NCBI GenBank assembly: GCA_035235625.1 | Contig: CP141140.1 | Coordinates: 62,984,581-63,048,580 of the forward strand | Direction: 5' to 3' | DNA length: 64,000 nt | Source of the DNA: Saururus chinensis | Lineage: Eukaryota; Streptophyta; Magnoliopsida; Piperales; Saururaceae | Shown here: positions 24,886 to 63,261 of the stretch, piece by piece | Position numbering within the stretch: position 1 is the stretch's first letter | Layout: each line of letters opens with the position of its first letter | The notes under the pieces: generated by a model | What the model was told of the DNA's origin: nothing | What the model saw: the letters and a program-made list of their open reading frames with translations, nothing else | The model's database searches: none | Position numbers and translations under genes: made by a program

Positions 24886-25179
24886 TAACTATATATGCAT
24901 CTTTTAGTAGTCTTCTATAAATATGTCACTATTATTAGCACATATGTACTTCTACCATATCATTAAAGTGTTCATATGTTTATATTATATGTATTTTTTA
25001 GTAGTTTTGTATGAACATGTCATTATTATTAGTACATATATATTATATATATGTGGCACCACAACTTTTTCTGTATACGCTAACCTTCTTTTGGTTGTAT
25101 GAAATATATTTATTATTTGATAACCTAAATTTTCTAAATCTTTATATTCACGTCTTACTTCAAGTGTCATCTTATAACC

Positions 25180-25663
25180 AGTGTTTTGAAAACTGGCCCG
25201 CCCATTGACCCGGAATGGTCGTCGAATTGGGTCAATTGGGTTCAATCGGGGGTCAACCCGGGTTGACCCAGTTTTGCTATATATTATATTAAATATAATA
25301 TTATGTATACAAAATCATTATGGCGCAGTGGGTTGTGTGCTTGAAACAGTTGCAACGTCAGGAGTTCCTATTTTGAAGTTTTAGTTATACAGTTGATAAA
25401 TATACATTACATAAAATTGTTGTGTTAAATGTTTAAACCAAAATTGTGGTAGTCAAGGGGGTTAGGTATTAGTAGCCCATTTAACAGACATAAAATTTTT
25501 TCTTCACTTTTATGTCATAGAGTAGTAAACCAGACTGACCCAAGACCCAGGTCAGCGGGTTGCCGGTTCAACCGGACGGGTCATCCTGACCCAGTGAACC
25601 GGATGAACCGGCCTAGTTTATTAACCGGGTTTGGTTGAACCCGGTCTAAGTTTTAAAACAGTA
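25180..25663. mobile_element. Small inverted-end DNA element (copy in unit 1)
   Basis: The left end AGTGTTTTGAAAACTGGCCC faces the right end CCGGTCTAAGTTTTAAAACA, an imperfect inverted pair. Inside, GGGTCAACCCGGGTTGACCC and CCGGTTCAACCGG palindromes accumulate at both sides. Flanks TTATAACC / TTATAACT could be a diverged 8-bp duplication, suggesting a hAT-like MITE. A box-A-like string (TGGCGCAGTGGG, 25321) lies inside but has no matching box B. Assignment is tentative. Confidence 0.45.
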
Positions 25664-26118
25664 TTTATAACTACCAAAAAGAAGTTAACTTCATTTGTGT
25701 ATATAATATATCATATATGAATGTATGTCATTTATTTCTATTATACATAAATAAAAATTAAAGTAAATATCACATATATAATATATGTATATTATGTCTT
25801 TTTAATAAAATAATTATTAAATATATATGATATATGCATCTTTTAGTAGTCTTCTATAAATATGTCACTATTATTAGCACATATGTACTTCTACCATATC
25901 ATTAAAGTGTTCATATGTTTATATTATATGTATTTTTTAGTAGTTTTGTATGAACATGTCATTATTATTAGCACATATATATTATATATATGTGGCACCA
26001 CAACTTTTTCTGTATACGCTAACCTTCTTTTGGTTGTATGAAATATATTTATTATTTGATAACCTAAATTTTCTAAATCTTTATATTCACGTCTTACTTC
26101 AAGTGTCATCTTATAACC

Positions 26119-26602
26119 AGTGTTTTGAAAACTGGCCCGCCCATTGACCCGGAATGGTCGTCGAATTGGGTCAATTGGGTTCAATCGGGGGTCAACCCGG
26201 GTTGACCCAGTTTTGCTATATATTATATTAAATATAATATTATGTATACAAAATCATTATGGCGCAGTGGGTTGTGTGCTTGAAACAGTTGCAACGTCAG
26301 GAGTTCCTATTTTGAAGTTTTAGTTATACAGTTGATAAATATACATTACATAAAATTGTTGTGTTAAATGTTTAAACCAAAATTGTGGTAGTCAAGGGGG
26401 TTAGGTATTAGTAGCCCATTTAACAGACATAAAATTTTTTCTTCACTTTTATGTCATAGAGTAGTAAACCAGACTGACCCAAGACCCAGGTCAGCGGGTT
26501 GCCGGTTCAACCGGACGGGTCATCCTGACCTAGTGAACCGGATGAACCGGCCTAGTTTATTAACCGGGTTTGGTTGAACCCGGTCTAAGTTTTAAAACAG
26601 TA
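26119..26602. mobile_element. Small inverted-end DNA element (copy in unit 2)
   Basis: This is the duplicate of the element at 25180-25663, moved with the 939-bp tandem duplication rather than by its own transposition. Confidence 0.45.
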
Positions 26603-26792
26603 TTTATAACTACCAAAAAGAAGTTAACTTCATTTGTGTATATAATATATCATATATGAATGTATGTCATTTATTTTTATTATACATAAATATAAATTTA
26701 AGTAAATATCATATATATATATATATAATATGTATATTATGTCTCTTTAATAAAATATTTACTATTAAATAATTTATGTCATGTGTAACATG

Positions 26793-36884: not shown

Positions 36885-37588
36885 TCACGTCCAGAGTTCC
36901 CAGGCAGTCCCTAGTGCGGCCGAGTCGTCAATGAAGATGCCGGTGGCGGCAGCGGCGGCATTCGAGATAAGTGTGCTGTTAGCAACGTAGTAGTTGTCAA
37001 CGTGATCGGGCGAAGGAGGAGGGGGAGGCGAAGCAAGAGAGCAAATGATGGCGATTAGGCTATCCTGCTGGCTCTTCATATTGATGAGCTCCGCCTGGGA
37101 CTTGGCCAGCTCAGCTTGAAGCTCGTTCACCTGCTTCTGCAGCTGGAAAATGGCCCCGGCGCAGCCGTACACCGGATCCCTGATCCGGGCATTCGCCTCG
37201 TACACCATGCTGCTCACCGCGTCGGCCCTCTGGCTTTCCGGCAGTTCCTGCAAAATCATAAACAAGCAAAACTCTCACCCAATCCTCATTTTGCAAGAGC
37301 TCGATCGCTAGATCAATCTCATTCAATAACTTTTCCATGCATCATTACCTGTAAGAACTTGATGATGTTGCTAGCCCCGAACACCCGGTGCGCCGTAGTG
37401 AACTTGAGCGGCTCGGTGGGCGGGAAGTAAGGCGCAAGCACACACTTCTCGACGCACCGCCTGCGAAGGATCTTGCAGGCGGCGCAGGGGCTAACGACTA
37501 CCGGAAGGGATGAAGGAGGAGGGGAAGAAGAAGGACAAGACGAATATGGAGAGCCAGTCGTTACGATGGTGGTGTCACTGCCCTCCAT
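36885..37588 (-). CDS. LOB-domain transcription factor, class I (LBD1/LBD11-like)
   Basis: Two exons, 37588-37349 and 37247-36885, with a 101-bp GT/AG intron in phase 0, give 200 aa. LBD proteins are plant-specific nuclear DNA-binding regulators of organ boundary, lateral organ and vascular development. The DNA-binding motif C-x2-C-x6-C-x3-C is intact (CAACKILRRRCVEKC, about residues 38-52). The GAS block (FGASNIIKFLQ) closes exon 1, where the family's conserved intron sits. The class I leucine-zipper-like L-x6-L-x3-L-x6-L is complete (LQKQVNELQAELAKSQAEL). The N-terminus is Ser/Pro-rich and the C-terminus has a Pro run, an Ala run and an acidic end. The core around LPESQRADAVSSMVYEANAR is closest, from memory, to LBD1 and LBD11, which act in cambium and secondary growth; this subgroup call is less sure than the family. 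No lesion is seen. Confidence 0.93.
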
Positions 37589-37685
37589 CTTTCTTCTTCT
37601 GTGAAGAAAGGAGATCGAGGAGTCTGATGATAAAAAAGACTCGAACTGGGACTGTGTCTCTCGAGCTTTAACAGGGAGGAAGCTC

Positions 37686-37697
37686 CATATATATAGC
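37686..37697 (-). promoter_or_regulatory. TATA box of the LBD gene
   Basis: CTATATATATGG reads on the - strand about 100 bp upstream of the LBD start codon, with purine/CT-rich leader sequence between. Spacing and sequence fit a plant core promoter. Confidence 0.6.
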
Positions 37698-37699
37698 AG

Positions 37700-38258
37700 C
37701 GGCCAGAGGGAGCAGCTGCAGGCAGGCGAGGAGACCATGGCGTCATGCAAATTAAGCCTCTGAGCTTTGAAATTCCAGGCGGGGCCCGTGGGGGGCATCG
37801 ATTTTCCGTAACAGACTCGGTGCCTCCTGCCGGTCCAGCCCCACGGACGGACCGGCGAATCCAGGCCGCCCATATGTTTGCAGCTGGGTCGGTCAACCGA
37901 GTCGGTCGTCAAGCCCTTCCATGTGCTAACTCACAGCACTCGTCTTCTGTCCTACGTGACGGTCGTGCCCGGGCTGGACCGGTTCGTAAGTTTTAGGTGG
38001 ACCCTACCAATCAGGTGGTGACAGGTGTCTCACATTGGGAAAAGTTCAATGTTTCCCTGCCAAGTCCAATGTTCTCACCTGGACGAATTTCAAGATTAAT
38101 GTGGAGATGGTGGTCATGTGTCGACGTGGGCCGCGTGGGACCGGGTTGGGTGGAAGACCGGTTTGCTCGTTGGGCACGTGAAAGCAACAGCCCGGTTCGA
38201 TTCAAGATGTGACAAGTAAAGGCGCTATGCACCATTTTTCTTCACCAGATTGCACTCA
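37700..38258. other. LBD upstream region
   Basis: GC-richer than its surroundings. Several overlapping frames exist on both strands (for example 37745-37996 and 38011-38235), but none has a domain and none looks like a gene. It probably holds the LBD promoter; I recognise no further element with confidence. Confidence 0.45.
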
Positions 38259-39806: not shown

Positions 39807-40057
39807 TAGGCCCAGCCAGTCCTATCCAAGCTGTAAATGAGTCGGGCCTGCCTTAGGCCGCATGGAAGGGGTCTCCTAAAAGAACACATGCTGTAATCAG
39901 CACAAAAATATGCTACAAGGCTGATATAAAAATAAAATGGTGGGTTGGACATGGGTGAAACGGGGGAGATAAGGAAGAAGTGGGCTTTGAACGTACATGG
40001 ATGCCGAGAAATAAATGGACGATCTACATGTTTGGCACTTTGTATTGGGCCAAAGTA
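39807..40057 (+). repeat. Long inverted repeat, left arm
   Basis: This 250-bp arm is the reverse complement of 40789-41041 with high identity. For example, AGTCCTATCCAAGCTGTAAA here faces TTTACAGCTTGGCTAGGACT there. The two open frames over the arms encode the same peptide only because of the inversion. Confidence 0.85.
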
Positions 40058-40252
40058 TTGGAGGCCCATCGGTTCACCTCAGGATATGGGCTGGGCGTGG
40101 GCCTAGCCTAGCCAACGGATCGAATGGCTTGTGGCCTGAGCCCATCCCATTTTTAGACGAGCCTAATAAATTTTCGCCCGACCCATGGCCCTGTTTTTTT
40201 GCAGGTTGAGTGGCTAGCCTAATTGTGCTTGCACCACTTCAGCACTAAGTAA

Positions 40253-40456
40253 TGCTCCCTCCATCCCCAACTAATAGCTCTATTTAACAAAAAAAAATTA
40301 TTTTATATTAATAATTTTATTTTATTTTATTTAAATAATTAAATACCTAAAAAAATATTATAATCATATTTTTTTTTTCTTAGATGTTAGTTTCGCTATT
40401 TAATAAAATTTATTATTTTTTTAAATATAATTATTAATATAAAATGAAAGAAGTAT
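40253..40456. mobile_element. Stowaway-like MITE, longer variant
   Basis: The left end is GCTCCCTCCATCCCCAACTA with an ATAGCTCTATTTAA core. The right end is TATTAATATAAAATGAAAGA and AGTATA. The inside repeats ATAATTTTATTTTATTTTAT and its complement. It is about 200 bp. Confidence 0.55.
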
Positions 40457-40673
40457 ATATTAAAAGAATCAAGACAAAAAAAATATGCTAATATTGATTT
40501 TTCTAACCCTTTTTATTTTTCTAATTGAAAAAAATGGGCATGCACATTTGGCACCCCACCGCTTGAAAGTTGTTGACATTCTAGATCCAATGATATGGCC
40601 TTTACATCATCATAAATACTATACATTCATCTAATTACTTAGAATTTTTAGTCATCTCATTGACATCTTATAA

Positions 40674-40747
40674 TACTCTATTTATCTTATATTAATAGTT
40701 TTACTTAAAAATTAAATAAAATTATTACTGTGAGATGGAGAGAGTAT
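40674..40747. mobile_element. Stowaway-like MITE
   Basis: TACTCTATTTATCTTATATT at the left pairs with TACTGTGAGATGGAGAGAGT at the right, about 74 bp. A decayed counterpart is present in duplicated segment copy 1 (about 38452-38520), so the insertion predates that duplication. Confidence 0.55.
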
Positions 40748-40788
40748 CTTTTATTCTATTAGAGGTGTCAATTATCAGAATTGACATA

Positions 40789-41041
40789 GTACTTTGGCAC
40801 AATACAAAGTGCCAAACCATGCAGATCGTCCATTTCTCTCTCGGCATCCAACGTACGTTCAAAGCCCACTTCTTCCTTATCTCCCATGTTTCACCCATGT
40901 CCAACCCACCATTTTATTTTTATATCAGCCTTGTAGCATATTTTTGTGCTGATTACAGCATGTGTTCTTTTAGGAGACCCCTTCCAGGCGGCCTAAGGCC
41001 GGCCCGACTCATTTACAGCTTGGCTAGGACTGGCTGGGCCT
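40789..41041 (-). repeat. Long inverted repeat, right arm
   Basis: Reverse complement of 39807-40057, lying inside duplicated segment copy 2 where copy 1 has no counterpart. It is therefore an insertion later than that duplication. Confidence 0.85.
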
Positions 41042-41473
41042 ATAATTGGGATATCACTCGGGGCCAGGTACATAGTAATACCTAACCCGATCTGACCCTA
41101 ATGGATTGGGTTTAGGTTTTTAAATTCACCTTGAATAGCTATTCGGGTTAGGTTTGGGTTTCAAGTAATCCAACTCAACTCGACCCTTTTAATGTTATAA
41201 ATATAGTTTTTTTTTTGTATTTTTCTTTGTAGTTTTATAAAATTCGACCGACCCGGTCCTAATGGGTCGGGTTTGAGTTTACAAATTCAACCCAAATAGC
41301 TATTGGGGTTTACTATTTCTTAAATGGTATTAGGTTTGAGTTTTGTCAAACCTAACATGAACCCGACCTTGTGGCATTCCTAGTCTAGAAGATTTAATAT
41401 TTAAACAATACTAGGAAGAGGATAAAACATTCTTCATTTGTAAACACATCAATGGGCCTATCAATACGTTTTT

Positions 41474-42689: not shown

Positions 42690-42698
42690 TTAAAATAA
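42690..42698 (+). repeat. MULE target-site duplication, left
   Basis: TTAAAATAA directly precedes the element's first base. It is identical to 49433-49441. A 9-bp duplication is diagnostic of the Mutator superfamily. Confidence 0.85.
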
Positions 42699-42955
42699 GG
42701 GAAAATTATTAAAATAATAATTAAAAAAAATATTTACCAAAATATACCACTTTGGGAAATATTTCTCAAAGTGGTGTTCGTTTTTGCCACGCTGGCGCCA
42801 GCGTAGCTTTTTTTTTATATTTTTTAAGTTGATTTCGTCGTTTAGAACGACGAAACCTTTTATTACTTGACCCGGTTTTGTCGTTCAGAACGACGAAATC
42901 AGCTTAAGTTGATTTCGTCGTTCTGAACGACGAAACTACCACGTTTGTCTTATTT
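42699..42955 (+). repeat. MULE terminal inverted repeat, left
   Basis: Pairs with 49180-49432. Landmarks in order are the AT-rich tip, ATATACCACTTTGGGAAATA, GTGTTCGTTTTTGCCA, a GCTGGCGCCAGC palindrome, and CGTCGTT/AACGACG palindromes separated by CTTTTATTACTTGACCCGGT. A fourth palindrome (42981-43007) lies just inside. Confidence 0.9.
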
Positions 42956-43233
42956 CGGGCTCAGTCGTGGGAAGGACACTGATTTCGTCGTTCTAAACGA
43001 CGAAATCAAATTAAATTTTTTTAAAATTACTATTTAAAACTAATTTTATCACCTGTCCCTGTTCATTCATTCAAAACACAGAACACAAAACACAGATGTA
43101 TATGCACGACTTCATTCATTCCACCCATAACAAATATCACCATAACAAATATCACTATCACGAATATCACCATAACAAATATAAGTAAAGTACATCATAT
43201 ACGAGTAACAAATATAATACATCACAAATAATA

Positions 43234-45531
43234 TCATAATCTCCTACGTCCTCGTCCTCGCCCTCGCCCTCGTTCTCGACGGGGGTGTACGAGCTCCTTA
43301 TGATCTACCTCTGGCTGTGGCTCTAACTCGGGCTCCGACTGGGGCTGGGGCTCCAGCTGCGACTTCATGTCAGGCTCCTGCTCGGGCTCCGGCTCAGCAT
43401 AAGTAATAGATGGTACAATACGAGCTGGCCAATGTCGTCTATAATATAAAATCGGATCTGGCTGAGTGACATGTGTAGTGTCTGGAAATGATGAACCTGG
43501 AGGAGAGTTATATGCTGCTGATGATGATGGAATATCAGGGCATGAAGAGTGCATTGGCTGCGTCTGAGCGGCCTCGTCGACAGGATAATCTCGATGAACA
43601 TCCGTAATCACCGAATGAAGTAGTGGCAAGCTACAAAGGACATCATTAGACGATCTAATCACCGACTCACATGCTGCTGCTAAGTCCTCACGCGAAATAC
43701 AGGTGACAAGTGCATCACTCAAATACGCATTAGTATGTCGAAGCTGACGAAGCTATAAAAAAATAAATTAAATATTAGATAAATAATTAAAACGAAATAA
43801 GAAAATAATGTATGCCTTAATTAACAAAGTTGTACTTACTAGAGCTGCCTCAGATGCTCCCCTAGGCTGATATGTCATCTCCTCTACATCATCGCGCGGT
43901 AAAATATATCAATGTGTAATCGGTAAATACCAGTGCATATAAATACTACGAACATCTCGCAATGTCGTGCCAGCTCCCCTCTAATAATAGTGGATCTCCT
44001 ATCCTCCCATCGAGCAATATACGACGCATGATATATAGCCCAGTCGGTAATATGGCGGCCCTGTCGAGTGATGCGATGGACAAACTCGACAGTAGAAGGT
44101 GGGACCCCTTGCTCCAGGTTAAACTGGAGCATTACACGATTTGGCACATACATCTCTATAATCTCATAACATATGAGAGGGGTTCGAGAAAGCCACACCT
44201 CTCGACCGTCAGTGCAGAGTGGAGGTATCACAGCGAACAAGTCCTCCGAGTACGGCTGCCAAATAATCTATATAATATATAAAGATAAGTTAGTTTAAAT
44301 AACGACAAAATTTTTTAAAATCATTATATAAAAAAGTTCAACACGGTAATAAAATTACCTGGTATGGCCGCTGGTAGTCTAACTCCCCTCTATACAAACG
44401 GAGGACTCCTTGTGGATTTTCGGTTCTCTTCTTCCGAACATTCCACCTTAAGGAGTTAAATTTAAGAAATGAGTTCAACATATGTTCATAAAACGTTGCA
44501 TAAAAAGTAATGTGGTAAACATAAATACAACCTACCTCACCCCTAATGGAGCACCCTCGACCAAGCGACCCATCTCAGCAGTTGGTCGGCCGACGTGTAA
44601 GTGCTCCCACGACCATAACTATGTCATAAAATAGTGATAACAAATATTAGAAATAAAAAATTATACGTGACTAAAACTCCAAGTAAAGTTACACAATTAT
44701 TTACTTGAAGAAGAGTCAGACAGCCCGCAATCCCCGAGGTCATGGCCTGGCATGCCTTTCCTAACTCTCGGTATAAGAATGCGAGAGTAGCACTGCCCCA
44801 TGAATAAGCGCCAGCCATGTCAAAGTCGTGAAGGAGAGAGAGATACGAAACATGCACGTGGCTGCTCGTGGTATCCGCAAATATGGTGGCTCCAAGTAAA
44901 TGCAATATATAGGCTCGTGCATGCTGCTCGATAACTATCTCTGTAGCATCGGCTGGGAGCTCACGAAACTCCTGTAAGAGCCATCGTAGGCTCACTCGGC
45001 TACCACGCATCACTGTAGGAGGAGGAGCTCTACCAAGAAGTCTAAGTAATATATCCATATGAGCTCCTCCTGTCGTGCCTGTCACTGGATGTCCATCAAT
45101 ACGGAGTCCTAATAGAACTGCCACATCCATGAGCGTGATGGACATCTCTCCATATGACAAATGAAACGTCTGTGTCTCCCTCCTCCATCTCTCAACAAGA
45201 GCTGTCAATAGAGGCCGATCGAGACGAACATACTGTAGATGAATGAAATGGCCGAATCCAGCTCGCTCGATATAAGGTAATATACGCTCATCTATAGGCC
45301 AATGGCGGAGGTATTTAAAATGTTCGGTGCACTCAAGGCACCCGGGGTCCTATAATAAATTTTAAAATTATAACATGTCGTATTATATCAACCAAAAAAT
45401 AATGAAACAAATTTTAAAAAAAGTTATCATACCTCTCCTCTCCAAATAGCAGCAGACCTATGTGACTCCTGCTCTACGAGTAAAGAAGCGTCACTCGGGC
45501 CTGGCCCGTAACAAGGCTCTGCATGATCCAT
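43234..45531 (-). pseudogene. Plant mobile domain (PMD, MAIN-like) protein gene of the MULE
   Basis: Six exons fit: 45531-45433, 45349-44705, 44618-44536, 44446-44359, 44267-43840 and 43752-43234, all with GT/AG borders; the first five joins keep phase. It starts MDHAEPCYGPGPSD. The PMD core includes DPGCLECTEHF, ERAGFGHFIHLQYVRLDRPL, TALVERWRRETQTFHLSYGE and LMDVAVLLGLRIDGHPVTG, then LWSWEHLHVGRP and a VPLICYEI-like block. The last exon gives a Glu/Pro repeat tail (EPQPQSEPELEPQPE) and an RGRGRGRGRR end. PMD proteins are related to Arabidopsis MAIN/MAIL1, nuclear proteins acting in silencing and genome integrity; TE-borne relatives are known. In exon 5 the frame shifts and a stop occurs near YMHWYLPITH, so this copy appears broken late in the domain unless an unrecognised splice avoids it. 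Function in the element is unknown. Confidence 0.75.
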
Positions 45532-45626
45532 ATGATCTGTGGAAGATGAAGATCATATCATTAATCGTAAGGAATACATGCGTACGTAACTAAAAAATAT
45601 AATAAATACAGAGGTTGATTATATGT

Positions 45627-48472
45627 TTACCAATCAACAGGAGGGTTTCTACATGATTTACTATTATGCCCACTTTGTTTACACCTCATGCATTTATATC
45701 CTCCTCTACCATCTCTTTCCATTGTTCTGCGGTCCATGGTATTCCTAATGCGAACAGACCGTGGGCGACCGGGTTGCCTTGTTGCTATCGGTGGGTATAA
45801 CACAAACGGTATATCCCTCTCCCAATACTCCCGACCACGAGGAGAATAAAATTCTGCGGAGTACACATTTCTATAAGTAGAAGATGTGTAAAACAGTGAT
45901 GCATTGATTGGCTCCCGCCGCTTTGCCCACACGGCGATAAGGTGCGAGCAAGGATAACCATAAACCTGAGGGATGTTGCATGTACAAGTATGCATCGCAG
46001 CATTTACCATAACCTTGCAGGCACGAATGGATGTCACTTCGTACTGACTCCTGTTGATCCTATTAAATATATACTCCCCAATTTTTCTTGTTTGCTCTCT
46101 CAATATGGCTTCCACTCTAGGAGTATATGGGGTGACTATGGCAGAGGCGGCAGAAGATCATTTAACAAAAAATTTTATGAGCCGATAAAAGATAGCTGAC
46201 ACTAAAGCCTGCATGGGTAACCCTCGTGCCCCATTCAAGACGCTATTTAAACTTTCAGCCATATTTGTAGTCGTCATGCCAAATGTCATAAAACCACCGT
46301 GTGCATGGGACCACTGTGCGGGATGCAATTCTCCTCCTAAGAGGAGATGTTTTGCCCTAGGACTCTCTTGACCAATCAAGTCCATTTTAGCATCAAACTT
46401 TTCTACTGTGAGTGCACAAGCTGCTGCCCCAATCAAGTCCGTCAGTGTATCATTTTTGAACTCCTTAAAATTTGCTTTTATGTGACGGATGCAATAACGA
46501 TGGTGGTAATCCGGCTCTGGAAGAACCTCAGGCACTGCCTTCTAAAGCCCCTTATGTCGATCTGAAATAATGACGATGTTCGTCATGCCCATCAGTACAT
46601 GATCCCTCAATTCCATTAGAAACTATTTCCAATTATCTCCGTCTTCCTTCACGACAAGCCCGAATGCAAGAGGAAATAACCCATTATTTCCATCTGTAGC
46701 CGTTGCAGCCATAAGAGCACCAGGATATCTGCCATACAAGTGAGTGGCATCAACGCCAATCACAGGGATGCAATGTCGAAACCCAGCTATAGACGGCCCA
46801 AACGCCCAAAACAACCGTCTAAATCTCCTACAAGTGCCACCATCTGCACGAGGTACTACATCATCCTCTAAGCGGTAGTAGGTGTCAAGATTGGCTTCTT
46901 GCACCGCCCTTAGGTACATTGGCAACAATTTATACGATTCTACCCAATCTCCATAAATGGCCTTGATCGCCATATTCCTTGCTGCCCATGCTTTCTTATA
47001 AGATATGTCAACATGATACTTCTCCTTCATTCTTTGAATAATATCCCCTGGTGTGAGAGTTAATTCGGCTTGGATAGCGGGCATTATGACCTTCGAAATA
47101 AAGGAGGCACTGCACTGCCTATGATCTGTGCTAAGCTGGGCATTCCGACATGTGTGGTCACCTTTGTACGTCTTCAATTTAAAGAACCCACCACCCCTTT
47201 TGATTGAGCCATGCACTCTCCAAGGGCAAGTGCTATCAATGCACTTCACTGTATACTCCGCCGGATTGGCTCGTACAACCTTGTATTCGACATGATTTTG
47301 AATGGAAAACTCCTGCAAGGCTGTAACGAATGCTTCTTTATTCTCAAAGATGCGGCCAACGTATAACTCATCTTCATTTTGTTGGTCCAAATCCATTGTA
47401 GAATTCACTGCCGCATCTATCTCCTCATCTGTGATGTGTGCATAAGTGGCTCCACTTCACAGTACGGCGGCTCTTCATCATCTACATTCATATCATTCCC
47501 AGCAATGACATTGTCTACCGCATCATCCCCCTCGCCGTCAACCATCTGTTGAGCACTTTCTTCACCTCTAACCCCTTCTACATTCATATCAGAATCTTCT
47601 CCACTTACTTCGTCAATATTATCTTCACCTTCATTATCCTCATTTTCATCAATATCTTCACCGTAGACATATCCCCCCTACATATAAACATCGCATATGT
47701 ATTAAATTTCGTAAGCCTAAAAAAGTTAAATTCATTTATAAATATATATTTCACCTTTGATTAGATGGTCCAGCATCGGTATGACCAACATACGTGTAGG
47801 GGTAATGAAGGCCCATCGAACTTTGAGTTTCATACCATGCACCGCCTTGAGACATTTGAACGCTAAATGGCTCGTGTGCATGCGTCGTAGACCTTCCATA
47901 TTACACATAAAATCTCAAAATTTAGCTAAACGTATTTTCATTAAAGGATAATAAGATTGAAAACGTATTCACAACTAAATCAACCCTTACCTCCAAGTAG
48001 GTCCACTTCCATCGTAAATAGGGGCAGACGACCTATGACGTTCATTTGAAGCTACTGTCATAGATAAATTTCCCTCTTCTTCGTCGTCCACCGACACTTG
48101 CATATGACTTTCATTGTTCACATTTCTATCCGAGCTCCTTTGTAAGCTTCTATGAGAGCTCCTATGTGAACTACTTCGCCTTTCACTAGTCACTCGGGCC
48201 TCTTTTTCGAGAAATAACTCGAAAGAAATTATGTGACGCGAGTGGTGAAACATAAAAGCCATTGATGAATCATCATTTATGTTCATTAGTATCATTCTCG
48301 ATCCATAGGATGGAAGATTACATTTGATAGTAATTTTCCATCTTCTTCGATCTAACCCAACCTTACTTGCTACGTGCATCTCAAATTCATCAAATATAGA
48401 CGGTTTCTTCATTAATAATCCTTCTATGCGTCCGTCGTAGTTAATGAAAAAACTAACCATTTCTTCTGCCAT
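45627..48472 (-). pseudogene. MURA-type MULE transposase, decayed
   Basis: It starts MAEEMVSFFINYDGRIEG (48472), a PB1-like N-terminal module. A second exon (47892-47755) and a third (from about 47670) carry an acidic linker. DNA-binding MuDR domain: YVGRIFENKEAFVTALQEFS through CPWRVHGSIK. MULE catalytic domain: first Asp in IPVIGVDATHLYG, second in IVIISDRHKG, candidate Glu in NMAESLNSVL. C-terminal SWIM finger: CTCNIPQVYGYPCSHLIAV. CCHC knuckle: CMRCKQSGHNSKSC. Lesions seen: a frameshift just before ITDEEIDAAVNSTM (about 47440), stops after NWK (46622), after RHKGL (about 46543) and after IKFFVK (46158). It transposes DNA by cut-and-paste in intact relatives. This copy could only be moved by another element's enzyme. 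Confidence 0.85.
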
Positions 48473-49176
48473 TTCTATTCAATTAATTCATAAATAATAA
48501 ATTAAATTAATATTAGATTAAGCAAACTAATACTAATATTTACCCTAACAAATATATTTTCAAAATATATACGCACAGAAACTAATAACTTTACTAAGTA
48601 TATAAGCATATCATTAATAATTTATATTAATGAGTAAATTTTCTGATTAATAAAATTACACAATTGATGCAATAACGCATACAATGTCACAAATCATATA
48701 AAAACAAGTTCAAAAACTCAAATCCTCCTTATTTTCCAAAATTTGAGAGACTTGCCATCTTAAAAAACAAAAACTCATTAATTAAAAATCCATCTCAATT
48801 TAATAATCTTAAACAAAAAAAACACACAAAATGACTTAGAACAATACATCTAAAATTAGGGCTCAATGATAGGACATTCAAAACTTCAAATTTTTTCAAT
48901 GTAATATACAAAAGCTATATTTCTTCAATGTAACATATAAAAGATATATTACAACGATTGAAAAACAAGTAAATAAAAAAAAAAAGAAAAACATGCACCA
49001 AAAAAATGAAACGGGAGCGGCTCGACGTGGGCAGCGGCGGGCTAGACCAAGGCGGCGGCGGGCTGGATGGCGGCGGCGAGATTGGCAACGTCCGGATGTC
49101 GGCAAAAGCGGCGGAGCGAAAACCAGTCACTGGAACGCGATGGGAGGCGGAGCGGAGCCGCGGATTTAACGACGAT
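48473..49176. other. Transposase upstream region within the MULE
   Basis: About 700 bp between the transposase start and the right TIR: AT-rich, then a short GGCGGCGG-rich patch (49030-49090). It presumably holds the transposase promoter and leader. The frames at 48896-49233 are low-complexity and lack domains. Confidence 0.5.
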
Positions 49177-49432
49177 GATTTCGTCGTTCTGAACGACGAA
49201 ACCGGGTCAAGTAATAAAAGGTTCGTCGTTTAGAACGACGAAATCGTATTCAAGCCAATTTCGTCGTTCTAAATGACGAAATTAGCTTAAAAAATATTAA
49301 AAAAAAGCCACGCTGGCGCCAGCTGCTTGGCTGGCGCCAGCATGGCAAAAACGAACACCAGTTTGGGAAATATTTCCCAAAGTGGTATATTTTAGTAAAT
49401 ATTTTTTAAATTATTATTTTAATAATTTTCCC
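49177..49432 (-). repeat. MULE terminal inverted repeat, right
   Basis: Reverse complement of the left TIR at roughly 85-90% by eye. It carries two GCTGGCGCCAGC palindromes where the left end has one, and three CGTCGTT/AACGACG palindromes (49177-49203, 49221-49244, 49257-49283). Confidence 0.9.
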
Positions 49433-49441
49433 TTAAAATAA
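49433..49441 (+). repeat. MULE target-site duplication, right
   Basis: TTAAAATAA, identical to 42690-42698. Confidence 0.85.
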
Positions 49442-51399: not shown

Positions 51400-54300
51400 A
51401 ACAATTTTTTCATTTAGATCATTACAAATTCATTTCTTGTTGCTAATATGCATTTATTTGCCAAGAATCAAGGATCTAGATAGCGAGAATGTAGATCATG
51501 ATAAATTATTGCTATCAATTTTCACTTTCCATCTTCAAAATCTTCATGTTCAATTAACATTTCTTTTGGAACTTAAACATAAATGTCTTCTATATTTTTT
51601 CTTCTCCATTACCAATCCACAATAGATAGTTACAAAATTCTAAATTTTTTCTTGCTCTCATCTTCTTCAGAAGAGGTGGTTTTCAATTTTTCCCATAGAT
51701 GGGATCATACCAAACTTGAGTCTATAGTTTCTTCTCTAGTTCCACGTGGTATTACTAGTAGAACATGTCTAAAAATACCACCAAACTCCATCACTTTTCT
51801 ACCCAATAATTTTGAGAAATCTAAAATATCCTTTAATGTGCGATCAAGTGCTTCAAATGCATGTTTTTTGGCCATTTGAGCCTCATCCCAATTATGATTG
51901 ATGGTTGTGCCAATCCACATTGCTTTGAAATTTTACACATGCTATTCAGTTCAACATTAATGGGTATTTTGAACCTTGAATAAGTTGTACATCCTCTAGG
52001 TAAAACTGAGGCGACTACACCATTTTTATTGTTGCAATTGTAATCAATCCCTTTTTTCTAACTGCTGTAAAGATGGATCTATACAAAAAGGTTTTACTAA
52101 ACCATCGGGGCCATTGATGAAGAAAACACCAGAATTTTCAAATTGAATGTGCTCAATAATTGTGTCAAATGCATGTTTTTGGTCATTGTTTAAAAGCAAT
52201 ATACCATCTATATATGATTGTAGCGTTATAATAGATATTTCTTCATAAATTTCTTGTGTCCTATCATAAAGAAAATTAAGAATGTTTGATTTTGGTAAAT
52301 CACACTCATTCGAAGTTCTTCCAAAGCTTTTCAAAATTTTAGGCAATTCTTTCAAAACATATGACAATCGAAGGTCATTGGAAAATTTAACTCCCAACAT
52401 GCAACCTTTTGCCATTGCATCAAATATAGCATTCCATAATTGTCTTATATTGTTTAGCTCAGACAATACCAATATTGTTGTCAATAGCATCCTTAGAGCA
52501 CATGACATTGAATATGTTGCTACTTCTTGTAAACATAGTAATATATGATTATTATCTTCGAAGTATTTTGTGTTGCCTCTTGAAATGTTGTGCATTGAAT
52601 TCCTTTAACAGTGAAAAAATTATTAAAAGATTTTATTCTACGTAGACATGTTAACAACAACCTTAAAAAATATCTCTCTCCTTCAGCTAGGTTTGCAGCA
52701 TTTATTCTACCCATTGTTTTTTGTTCTTCTATTTTATCCAGATTCAATTTTTTGTATTCCAGACATAATATGATGGGAATTGTCGATATAATAAAGTTCT
52801 TGCAAATGGATCAATTACGTTCATTGCAAAATATTATGTGAATACAGTTCTTTTCATTCTTTTATCTTGCACAACTTTTTCTAAATCTTGTTTATTATCA
52901 AATGATACTAAATGATGATTTAGTAAATGCATTTATAAATTGGAGATTGCAGGATGATTGTTGCATAAATTGTAGCAAAAAATTCTCCATGTTGCCCCTG
53001 GAGGAGATACCCAATGTGCATTTTGATATCTTTCTATCTGATTTACATCATCAATATGCATATATTTTCATAATTTTACTAAAATACGATCATGGCCTTT
53101 GTATATATACTTGTAAAAATACTTTATTACCTTAATGCTTCAACATACTTCAATATTTATACGACAATCATAACATTTCAACAAGTACAGATTGTAGGGA
53201 ACAACCTACGTATTATCCAAGTAGTAGCCTCAAGTATGAATAAACGATCATTATTCCTTCATCTATAAATAGGATATGCATCATTCCCTTTTGATGTGGT
53301 ATTTGATAACTTTTTCAGTTATTTAAATCGACAAGCTCCATCTACCATACAATGCAATTTCTTCCTTAACATACCACATGGTCCATGCATCATATGATTT
53401 GTTTTTATCTTATAGAGAAACTTATCTTCTTCAATATTTAGAATTTTAGCACAAACATAACTGTCATAAGAATCTACTTCCGTGATCTTGTCCTTTTGAT
53501 CCATTGTTAATAGCAAATGAATGTGTGATATTCCTTGTTTTTAAAATTCTATAACACCAGCATAAGCAACATCCTTTCCTAAAAAAATTGTTTTTAATAT
53601 CAAATTTTCATGTCATCCACTTTTGCTTTAAAAACTAGTGCAATGAGTTCTGGGCAATCAAAGGTCTTTTCTCTAGGCATGAGGTGGCAAACAATCTCTG
53701 GCCATTCCGAATTGTAAGTCATTGTGATAAACAAATTTGGTTTTTCATACTCTTGGACTAAAGTCGTAGTATCTAAATATCAATGTTTCATGTCTCGTAG
53801 GCCACCTATGAATGATAGAGGTAACACTATCATTTTTCCCAATTTTACTACCATTTGTTTCTCCTATTGTTATACTATCAACAATACCTTGATAGAGTTT
53901 TACACAACTTTTGTTTTGATTGTGATATAGAAAGTTCAATCTATGTGTCTCGATCTTTACATACATATCAATTATAAATTGTTGGAACAATTTACCAATG
54001 TAGATTACACTCCAGCTTTCATTGGACCTTATTTTAAACAGATATGCATAGTATTCTCTGCATGTAATTTCAATTCTTTGTTTCCATAAAAAAATTTCAA
54101 TATTTCTTTAAATAATACTTCATTGTTGTGTATAATGTTCGATGTATATATCATTATAAATATCTTTATACTAATATGCCAACCATTTTCTCCCCTTGGA
54201 AACTACAACGGGTATTGATGTGGATCATAATACCCATAGTATGGTTGAACATTATAAGAGTGACCTATTTTTCTATGTACAATGATCTCTCTTTCTTGAG

Positions 54301-58754: not shown

Positions 58755-61700
58755 GTATGAGACTTGGTGAAGTTGTTCGCCAACTGGAGGGAGGACTGAA
58801 CGTATGAAAGAGAAAGATATCTAGTATGTAGATGATGATGGACAAAGTGGCAATTGATTTCTATATATTTTGTACGTTGGTGAAACATAGAAAGATGAGC
58901 AATCTAAATAGCACTCCAGTTATCACAAAACATAGGGGTGGGAGCAACAATAGAAACACCCATATCAAATAACAGCCAACAAAGCCAAACAATCTCAACG
59001 GCCATGTCAGCCATAGCCCTATACACTAATCAAAAAGATCTAGCAACAACATCCTGCTTCTTGCTCTTCCAAGAGATAAGAGAATCACCCAAAAACACAC
59101 AGTTACCAGTAGTAGACTTACAATCAACACATCGCTAGCCTAATCAGCATATGAATAGGCTTCAAACAAGATTAGACGAGGATGAAAGGACACTGTAATG
59201 CAAAGTGTTTTGTACATAACAAAGAATTCAAAGAACAACAACCCAATGGGTAGCCTAAGGAGTTGAGGAAAATTGGCTGACAATATGTACAACATATTGA
59301 ATTCAGGATGACTGGCACTAAGGTATACTAAGGAACCAACAACCTCCCTATATCGAGTAGGATCATCAAGTGGAGTGTCATCTAAAAGGTCCAACTTCAA
59401 ATTTAATTCCATAGGAGTAGCTTCTGTATGAGAAACAAATAAGCTTTAGCGAGCAACAATATTAGTGGTATACTTGGATTGAGAAAGAAGATATCCTTGA
59501 AAAGAGTAGGCAACTTCAATTCCAAAGAAACACAATAGCTTTCATTTGAAACAACTCCATCAATTGGTGTTTGAGAGAAGAGATACCTACAACATCACTG
59601 CCAATAATAATCATATCATCAACATACAAAAGGAGTACAATATGCCCAGATGGAGTATCTCTGAAGAATAAGTCTAAATCATGAGTAGTGACAGTAAAAC
59701 CCAAACAAAGCAATGTTGCACTGAATTTCTCAAACCAAGTATGTGGAGATTGCTTAAGACCATACAAAGCACGATGAAGGTGACAAACTTGCCTTGGCTT
59801 ATATGAAAGACTAGGAGGAGGCTTCATATATACTTCCTTAGAGGAATCACCATTAAGAAAAACATTATTGACATCCATTTGATAGAGTAGGCACTTATAG
59901 ACTGAGGCAACATGTATAAGGGCATGAATAGAAGTCATCTTAGCAACATGAATAAATGTCTCATCATAATCAATCCCATATTTTTGGGCAAATCCTTTGG
60001 CAACTAACCTCGCCTTGTACTATTCAAGAGAACCATTAGATTTTGTTTTGATCTCAAACACCCACTTATACTCAATGGCCTGCTAATTAGGTAGAAGAAT
60101 CTAACTGCTAGGTGCCAGTCTTGTGCAAAGCAAATAATTCATCTTGCATAGTCCTCTGCCAGTTAATATCAACTAACTAAGAAAATTGAAAGTGTAGAGA
60201 GAGGAAGGAGAACCATATCAATCACCAAGAGAGGAAATAGTAGAATAATTCGATAGCAGAGAGCCAGTAGGGGGTGGAGGTAGAGCGGGAGTCAACCCAA
60301 CTAAATGGCGACTATGTTTGTGTTTGGGAACATGTAGAGATGCACCAACATAGTCTCTAGCAGGGGCAACTTGAGACAACAAGGGTGTTGTGGAGCCCTT
60401 AAGGTTTCATTGGTAAGCTTGAGTAATGGGTGGATGAGTCGATAAAAGAGTAGATACATCAACAGATTTATTACACTAATCAAAAAGAGATTTAGGAAAA
60501 TGATCGATGTAAATCAAAGTAGAGTGATCAATAGTAGAAACAGGATGAGGAATGACATAATAAATAGACGTTAAACAAACACAACAGTTGAGAAATATAT
60601 AACTTATTGCATGTCAAATCATAACATCGATATCCTTTCTAACCAATGCCATAACCTAAAAAGACACATAATCAAGAGCATGCAAACAACTTTGAGCATT
60701 CAATATCAAGGAGCAATACGCAACAAGCACAACCAAAAACACGTAGTAACTAATAATAAGGTTTAACACTATATAAACATTTAAAAGGAGACTTACTTGC
60801 AGTAAGGATGATGGAATGCGATTGATCAAGTAGGTTCAAGTAAGGACATCTTCATCTTGGAAGATAGAGGGAACAAAAGCAAAAAGTAACAGTGCACGTG
60901 TAGTCTATAAGATGTGACGATGCTTCCTTTCAGCAACCCTATTCTATTGAGGTGTGCAAGAGCAAGATAATTGATGAAGTGTACCTTCATTAGTGAGAAG
61001 GACTTTAAACTCAGAGGATAAATATTCATCACCTGAGTTAGAGCGGAATCACTTAATAGATGCATTAAATTAATTATGCACCATAGCAATAAACTCATGA
61101 TCAATCAAGAGAAAATCATATTAGCCATGCATAAGGTACACCCAAGAAAAGTGAGTACAACCATCCACAAAATAAAACATAATAGTTTGAATCACCCTTG
61201 GTAGAAAGTAGGGCAAAACACCATACATTAAAATGAACTAAGTCAAATGGATGATCAGAAATTGAATCACTTAAATTAAATGGAAGTGCTGATATTTTTG
61301 AAATTTTACAACCACGACAAGCATAAACGTCACTAACTGGCAAAGTTCCTAAAACATCTGCAGAAACTAAATATTGTAGTCTTGTCCTAGAAACATGTCC
61401 TGATTGCGACTGACATAAGTAAAATAAGGAAGAATCATAACAAAGATAGAAGTCACCCAAAGTAGAATGAGGAGTAGGAGAAGCATGTGCATGTAAGTGA
61501 TATAATGTGTAGGGACCTCCAACTCTACAACATGTCCCAATCTACCTACTTGTCTTCGGGTCCAACACAACACAACCAAAGGAAGAAAACATAACAAAGT
61601 AACCCAATTTAGTAAGTTGACTGATAGAAACAAGACCAACAGTAAATTTGGGACATGCAAAACATTAAAGAGTGAAAGAGAGGGTGAGCTAATGGAGCCC

Positions 61701-63261
61701 ATGCCAAACGATGACATGGAGCTACCATTGGTTGCTCAAATAGTGCAAATGTGTGAAGAGTCTCCGCATGCAGCAAAGTAGGTAGCATCTACTGTCATAT
61801 GGTGTGTGGAGCAAGAATCAAACATCCAATCGAAACAAATTAAGATGAATAAAAATCAGGTGGTGGAGACAATTTGTGTATGTGATAGACAACGCAAAAG
61901 GAGAGACAAAGGTAACAAGTAGTCGAGTCAAATTTGCCAGCAAGACTAGAGCTCATGAGTGGAATCTTCCACAAGTGAGGAGGCACTGGAGATGTCAATA
62001 GGTGCATCAGAGACCATATTGGCAGTCATATGGCAACCACTAGGGAACCACTGTCCACGATTTTGTTGAAAAGAACGGGCTAGTTGAGAAGCTGGGAATG
62101 AGCCAGGAAATGAACATCCATGTTGATGTGAAGAAGTGGACTAATGCCCATACTACTTTGGGTGTTGCGGGCATTCGGCTTTCCAATGTCCCTTATAATG
62201 ACAATAGTTACATTCGTCAATGGCAGTACGAGGTTTAGGCTTACCCATTACCTGAATAGGTGCGGTAGAGGAAGCAACCAAAATAGTTGGATTAGTTGAG
62301 GCTGAGACACTCAAAATCTTCAATCTAGTTTCCTCTACAATTAATTCATTACGAATAGTAACAATAGTGGACAAGGGAGACCAATGCAAAATGGAACCAC
62401 AAATGACTTCATATTCATCTCGGAGAGCCATAAGAAATTGAATAACCCTACAATCATCATGACATCTGAGCAAATTAGGAGAAACAAAGATTTCAACTAA
62501 TTCCATAAAAGCTAACTGATATGTAGGCATAGAAATCATGAGTAGATTTATCTCCTTGCCTAGGAGAACGAATATCCAGTTTCAGTTGATAAAGTTGGCA
62601 TAATTAGATTGCACATATGAAGAGGCTAAATAATCTTGAACAACCTTGCCTATCTTGAACTTGGCTAATTATAAACAAATAGAAAGATCCACATAATTAT
62701 TTATCCAAGTAATAATTTTGGCATTATGTATACGCCATTTAGAACATAATTTTGCAAAATCCTCTACTTTGACATCAGCTTTCAAAACAGGTTCAAGAGT
62801 AGAGCCATCAATATAATTTCATAATCCTTCTCCCATGATGAAGTTACTCATGACATAACTCCAATAGGAGTAATTACTACCATTCAGACACACGCTAATG
62901 GCTTAAAGATTATCATGTTTGTCTGATAAATCCATAGTAATGAGATTGGACCAATCAATATGTAATCAAGGGCAATGTAGGGCAAAGAGAGATAAAAAAA
63001 TACCAAAAACTTGAAGGGAACAAATGCAAGGGATATGTTACAATGAATAGTTATGCCAGAATAATAAAATGCTACAATGCACCAAAATAGTATGCTTAAT
63101 AGTGGCCAAGAATAGTATGGTGAACAATGTCGAACAATGTTGTGAACAGTACAGTGGAACAGTGTGGTGAACATTGTAGTGAACAGTAAGACAGAACAAT
63201 GCGATGAACAATGCCGATGCAAAGCCAACCAAAGAACAGATTCAAAACACCTCGGCTACCA

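Follow-up and report, generated by a model that had tools for sequence, protein, structure and literature searches.

What does a plant mobile domain (PMD) gene do inside a transposon? The question is raised by a Mutator-like element (MULE) that spans positions 42699-49432 of the window, i.e. the whole 64,000-nucleotide stretch analysed, and that carries two genes on the same (-) strand, a MURA-type transposase and a PMD gene. MULE-borne PMDs have already been published: Ikeda et al. 2017 (PMC5418596) describe PMD-C genes carried by MULEs in grasses and Amborella and propose an anti-silencing role for them, a proposal repeated in a 2021 review (PMC8616336). New here are arrays of a CpG-rich palindrome at the element's ends and the co-divergence of this palindrome with the PMD.

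Structure of the element

The element combines a MURA-type transposase with a 9-bp target-site duplication (TSD) and long terminal inverted repeats (TIRs), which places it among the MULEs (Table 1). The duplication is perfect, as an earlier sequence-only reading of this DNA had stated; its figure of about 250 bp for the TIRs holds for the right arm, the left one being shorter. In the outer block of the repeats (42699-42855 versus 49259-49432), 146 of 156 aligned bases are identical, with two gaps, and in the inner block (42854-42901 versus 49176-49223) 47 of 48, so that the aligned blocks share about 95% identity. The outer block contains a palindrome of its own, CCACTTTGGGAAATATTTCTCAAAGTGG, which is a candidate transposase site because the divergent copies L001 and L014 have it too.

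Table 1. Features of the two-gene element, in window coordinates
Feature	Position	Strand	Remarks
Target-site duplication, left	42690..42698	.	TTAAAATAA, read directly
Left terminal inverted repeat (PMD-side end)	42699..42901	+	arm ~200 bp
Outer TIR palindrome	42746..42775	.	counterpart at 49357-49386
Palindrome array, PMD side	42833..43005	.	23-bp units at 42833, 42876, 42913, 42983
PMD exon 6	43234..43752	-	Pro/Glu/Gln repeat and Arg-Gly tail, differs among copies
PMD exon 5	43840..44267	-	window copy: one frameshift and one in-frame stop
PMD exon 4	44359..44446	-	comparison of copies
PMD exon 3	44536..44618	-	comparison of copies
PMD exon 2, main part of PMD domain	44705..45349	-	Pfam PMD match
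PMD exon 1	45433..45531	-	comparison of copies
Probable intron between transposase and PMD frames	45537..45630	-	conserved GT/AG borders
MURA-type transposase gene	45627..48472	-	broken in window copy: one frameshift, three in-frame stops
Palindrome array, transposase side	49179..49281	.	units at 49179, 49221, 49259
Right terminal inverted repeat (transposase-side end)	49176..49432	-	arm ~257 bp
Target-site duplication, right	49433..49441	.	TTAAAATAA, perfect 9-bp match to left copy

Domain matches confirm that both genes lie within the same TIRs on one strand, as had been claimed. The transposase matches the Pfam families DBD_Tnp_Mut (E 2.9e-11) and SWIM (3.4e-5); its MULE domain is matched in part (E 1.9e-5, under the curated cut-off in the broken window piece) and its zinc knuckle below threshold. 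The PMD is matched at E 1.3e-50 by exon 2 alone and at 3.6e-86 by the spliced exons 1-5. Both genes are broken in the window copy. Elsewhere the main exon of the transposase is open for 638-639 codons (L009, L011, L012 and L020) and the PMD of L010 for 624 codons, its sole stop falling late in the Arg-Gly tail; none of the 20 copies compared has a quite intact PMD frame. A solved PMD structure was sought by sequence and no PMD was found among the three weak matches, and an AlphaFold model of exon 2 from the single sequence was set aside (mean pLDDT 56.7). A search for PMD relatives in viral contigs and genome contigs returned none.

How separate are the two genes? The sequence-only reading had described a separate spliced PMD gene. 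Spliced it is, in six exons, but its separateness is in question, as the PMD ATG follows the transposase stop by only 95 nt, a stretch with intron-like borders. Of the 19 copies that have this stretch, all keep the GT, and 17, i.e. all but L019 and L026, keep the AG that precedes the ATG; in the divergent L014 GTAAACATATAATCAA and AG-ATCATATGG are unchanged around a changed middle. Because the borders are kept while the middle has diverged, the stretch is probably an intron. MURB of MuDR offers a comparison for a different role of such a second gene: the PMD could be a transposition cofactor or, via splicing, the C-terminal portion of the transposase, and have nothing to do with silencing. The shared direction of transcription, the 95-nt distance and the intron-like borders would fit this reading, as would a selection on the PMD that resembles that on the transposase, and the MULE PMDs of Ikeda et al. 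are described as transposase fusions (PMC5418596, in the sections cited here). Splicing at the conserved borders, however, yields TGA with an ATG four bases on, i.e. a stop and no fusion, and a fusion would need another donor such as the phase-1 GT sites that exist upstream of the junction. In addition, L016 has a PMD without a transposase, though it may be a dead deletion copy. We therefore regard a cofactor or fusion partner without a silencing role as quite unlikely.

Elsewhere in the window we observed a tandem duplication of ~940 bp, 98% identical (24890-26770), a LOB-domain gene on the - strand (37322-37930), an inverted repeat with 190-bp arms of 97% identity and 856 bp between them (39807-41042), a Helitron-like piece of a PIF1-like helicase on the - strand (52047-52604) and Copia pieces (RVT_2, gag_pre-integrs), also on the - strand (59519-62581).

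The family in the genome

Is the pairing of transposase and PMD a one-off? In the genome that contains the window (516 Mb in 11 contigs, a plant's to judge from the genes), the Pfam PMD profile had at least 186 matches, with 117 of the 2740 first candidates scored. Besides the window we read 33 distinct PMD loci, 32 from the ranked match list (mostly its top PMD matches) and one, L034, found via the palindromes. The family's transposase, TIR or palindromes are present at 32 of these 33 loci. A one-off capture of the PMD was thus rejected, and the two-gene element type that had been proposed from the window is real and multi-copy. The exception, L003 (C1:36965775-36970031), has an exon 2 of 40% identity and no transposase in 4.3 kb; its PMD may belong to a host gene or to another element. 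A second transposon type, considered for matches with frames of ~525 aa, was also rejected, as L029-L031 belong to the same MULE family. L004 and L009 are one locus, as are L007 and L010; the doubles L004 and L007 are inside the PMD trees and outside the 28- and 29-element correlations given below.

In the first 20 copies, both ends were found in 18, and all four transposase pieces tested in 14, some of them in five and none in L016. Their target-site duplications are perfect in ten (11 bp in L022), have one mismatch in three and are unclear in five, an end being missing in two. Three further loci, picked non-randomly for close palindrome pairs, each have a perfect 9-bp duplication: L034 is a full element, L032 is a derivative in which none of the PMD pieces tested is present, and L033 has neither gene. 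Copies with the same TIRs and no PMD do exist, then, as two of three palindrome-picked loci; that all other copies would lack the PMD, the outcome that the sequence-only reading had named as fatal to its proposal, was not found, and the PMD-less copies look like derivatives. L033 (98-3680 of C1:1752500-1756300) is a 3.58-kb element with the family's TIRs and palindromes around a foreign interior, whose many frames may be captured pieces of host genes (Pack-MULE type).

Selection on both genes

A gene captured by chance could be a neutrally evolving passenger, and the private codon changes of the PMD are indeed close to the neutral expectation (ratio 0.98 in 18 copies; transposase 1.17 in 14 copies). 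Against the divergent L014, however, the PMD has a dN of 0.0985 and a dS of 0.4533, i.e. a dN/dS of 0.217 between subfamilies (20 pairs, with L016 and L017 included despite their non-homologous exon 1), and the transposase a dN of 0.0785, a dS of 0.2492 and a dN/dS of 0.315 (15 pairs). The exon structure is kept as well. Over 21 rows, the window and 20 copies, the prevailing lengths are 99 nt for exon 1 (17 rows), 645 nt for exon 2 (20 rows), 83 nt for exon 3 (20 rows), 88 nt for exon 4 (all 21) and 429 nt for exon 5 (16 rows); exon 1 is lost in just two of the 20 copies (L016 and L017), and at other borders a splice site is lost in single copies, e.g. in L011 and L018 at exon 5. A neutral passenger is hence hardly credible and disfavoured, and purifying selection on the PMD predates insertion; the neutrality since capture named beforehand as a contrary outcome was not found.

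Shared codon changes fall below the neutral expectation in both genes, at 0.59 of it for the PMD and 0.35 for the transposase, so that the constraint on the PMD is the weaker in this analysis, in which the shared changes include recurrent CpG changes, e.g. seven shared stops in the PMD. For the PMD this analysis left out L014, L016 and L017; for the transposase L014 and L015 were dropped, and L016, L017, L019, L021 and L023 were never in the alignment. Since shared changes lie under the expectation and private ones are neutral, the pattern marks a gene that was under selection in the mobile lineage and decays once inserted.

Palindrome arrays at the ends

A CpG-rich 23-bp palindrome, TTTCGTCGTTNNNAACGACGAAA, recurs in arrays at both ends of the element; it had escaped the sequence-only reading. 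At up to three mismatches the window has seven units, all of them subterminal, with none elsewhere in it and none in 100 shuffles. In the genome the exact sequence has 1152 sites and its backwards control none; a search of viral contigs for this palindrome found none. Each of the 20 copies holds between 2 and 12 units at up to two mismatches. A set of 184 units contains 119 mismatches, 105 of them CpG transitions, as methylated copies would be expected to show. The CpG observed/expected ratio reaches 2.21 and 2.08 in the ends versus 0.67 in the window.

The palindrome is conserved beyond its surroundings. At non-CpG positions its arms are 99.0% identical versus 91.0% for the spacers on one side of the element and 98.3% versus 93.2% on the other (P 2.5e-9 and 4.2e-4; 19 copies per side, with L014 and L021 left out), and at CpG positions 91.3% versus 79.4% and 90.0% versus 84.6%.

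Co-divergence of palindrome and PMD

Six elements (L001, L002, L005, L014, L039 and L040) carry a variant palindrome, TTTCGTCCTTNNNAAGGACGAAA, with a symmetric change in both halves (type 2). At the two diagnostic positions 213 of 287 units are free of decay, and these comprise 183 of type 1, 21 of type 2 and nine mixed units, versus 44.9 mixed units expected under independent halves with kinship ignored. Mixed units are present in L006, L008 and L033.

Could the palindromes matter as structure, as cruciforms or as hairpin RNA feeding small-RNA silencing, and not as protein sites? As single-stranded DNA the ends do fold far better than shuffles (z -14.0 and -12.8), and long MULE TIRs are described as yielding siRNAs (PMC10398659, in the part cited). 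Structure alone leaves unexplained the retention of one particular sequence and the identical variant change in all of an element's units, and we consider this explanation very improbable.

Which protein does the palindrome type follow? The six type-2 elements form one PMD clade (bootstrap 99). In PMD exon 2 (28 elements) the mean distance is 0.082 within type 2 and 0.042 within type 1 versus 0.156 between types, and two of 246 pairs of like type lie farther apart than the closest pair of unlike type, i.e. the types are separated. In the DNA-binding part of the transposase the corresponding distances are 0.081, 0.039 and 0.083, and such pairs number 64 of 246, i.e. the types are unseparated. 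The partial correlation of motif type with the PMD, given the DNA-binding part, is 0.862 (p 0.0005), and with the DNA-binding part, given the PMD, -0.281 (p 0.999), permutation p-values that overstate independence because there was in effect a single evolutionary split. A run with 22 elements concurs (0.863 for the PMD, -0.324 for the transposase), and with the C-part of the transposase instead, in 29 elements, the values are 0.839 versus 0.034. The 28-element set holds elements with both regions present (L041 and L003 are out, and L006, L015, L016 and L023 are among those missing regions); the 22-element set excludes L041, L003, the broken L014 and 11 elements with missing regions; the 29-element set has L041 restored and L023 out.

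The palindromes could still be subterminal binding sites of the transposase, with the PMD co-varying since PMD and ends are inherited as one block. Other DNA transposons commonly have several subterminal sites for their transposase. L033, without either gene, keeps its arrays, which therefore serve a protein acting in trans, and the distance in the DNA-binding part, before the PMD is accounted for, correlates with motif type at 0.71. This correlation vanishes given the PMD. Moreover, L005 and L039 are mosaics whose DNA-binding parts are closer to the type-1 L031 (95% and 94% identical) than to the type-2 L002 (92% and 90%), and L001 and L014, the two variant elements with both ends read, are type 2 at both ends; both observations speak against this reading. 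In the other four type-2 elements (L002, L005, L039 and L040) the PMD-side array alone was seen, physically adjoining the PMD, and no far-end units of L005, L039 and L040 occurred in the three stretches fetched. On balance, subterminal transposase sites seem a somewhat unlikely explanation, and the palindrome type appears to follow the divergence of the PMD and not that of the DNA-binding part. The two types are essentially one split on the PMD tree, which L041 (C5:22053650-22057650) fits poorly: its share of variant half-sites is 0.625, yet its PMD is nearer to type 1 (0.891 versus 0.855). L041 is an intermediate member, and its transposase C-part reaches just 74-77% identity with the others in the comparison.

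Discussion

Because the palindrome is conserved, symmetric, arrayed and CpG-bearing, and changes with the PMD and not with the transposase, we favour reading it as the target of the PMD protein or of its complex. In the model that we favour tentatively, at a little less than an even chance, the element is a two-gene MuDR-class MULE whose PMD works like VANC. The transposase would move the element, probably through the outer TIR, and the PMD protein, as a dimer or in a complex, would act on the subterminal palindromes by direct DNA contact and in a methylation-sensitive manner. It would thereby keep the element's ends active, as a self-activator or anti-silencer. The suggestion from the sequence-only reading that such a PMD counters silencing is consistent with our analysis. 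Its further idea that the host PMD family was taken from such elements finds no support here; for MULEs, Ikeda et al. argue the reverse, a capture of host PMD-C (PMC5418596, in the sections cited).

How does this compare with known systems? The PMD-C MULEs likewise join a MULE transposase to a MAIN-like PMD; they are described as fusions and the account cited contains no end motifs (PMC5418596), whereas here the frames are separated, probably by an intron, the ends have palindrome arrays, and palindrome and PMD fall into two subtypes that match. VANC, the product of a second gene of VANDAL MULEs, binds arrayed short motifs in the element's noncoding DNA and causes methylation loss there (PMC5735166, PMC10398659). 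In the parts of these papers cited, VANC targets change together within an element and the protein has repeat-rich, variable parts, both as seen here. The present family also has an arrayed motif that differs between subfamilies, which would be the target. In contrast, VANDAL TIRs are degenerate and those here are long, and the VANC motifs come without a description as palindromes in the same texts.

VANC contains DUF1985 and DUF287, and DUF1985 is the one other Pfam match of our PMD. The best match has 18.2 bits (E 0.0026) against a cut-off of 35.1, with a 59-aa piece picked after the first match; longer pieces give E 0.013-0.061, all below the cut-off, so that the PMD protein fails to qualify as a VANC by this domain. 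None of nine shuffled or reversed controls matched DUF1985, and one reversed control matched an unrelated family (E 0.052). The tie between the PMD and DUF1985 is a lead only. In a literature search, with subscription papers and preprints mostly outside it, no paper named both DUF1985 and the plant mobile domain, and among the matches listed for palindromic or subterminal motifs there was no plant mobile domain.

Two further systems pair proteins with short motifs. TnpA of En/Spm is a second element protein on arrayed subterminal motifs, tied to methylation state; it is unrelated to the PMD, and En/Spm belongs to the CACTA superfamily. The Arabidopsis proteins MAIN, MAIL1 and PP7L include PMD proteins acting in pairs, and the genes dependent on them have a promoter motif in common, CATGCAGTTT, present in 25 of 26 commonly down-regulated genes (PMC7156037, PMC9899485, in the parts cited). 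Unlike the PMD here, they are encoded by host genes. They promote silencing, and CATGCAGTTT is unlike our palindrome.

In summary, transposon-borne PMDs have so far been guessed to be anti-silencers, and the present family supplies a concrete candidate target, a 23-bp palindrome. It also provides a natural two-allele test, in which two PMD types pair with two palindrome types and the transposase does not track the split, and it points to a link of PMD with VANC that is open to testing. A more general proposition, that transposon PMDs are sequence-specific anti-silencers which recognise CpG palindromes at the ends of their own element, co-evolve with the half-site and are distantly related to the DUF1985 domain of VANC, we hold to be unlikely. 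If it were true, the domain of the host silencing proteins MAIN and MAIL would also be that of a widespread class of anti-silencers in transposons.
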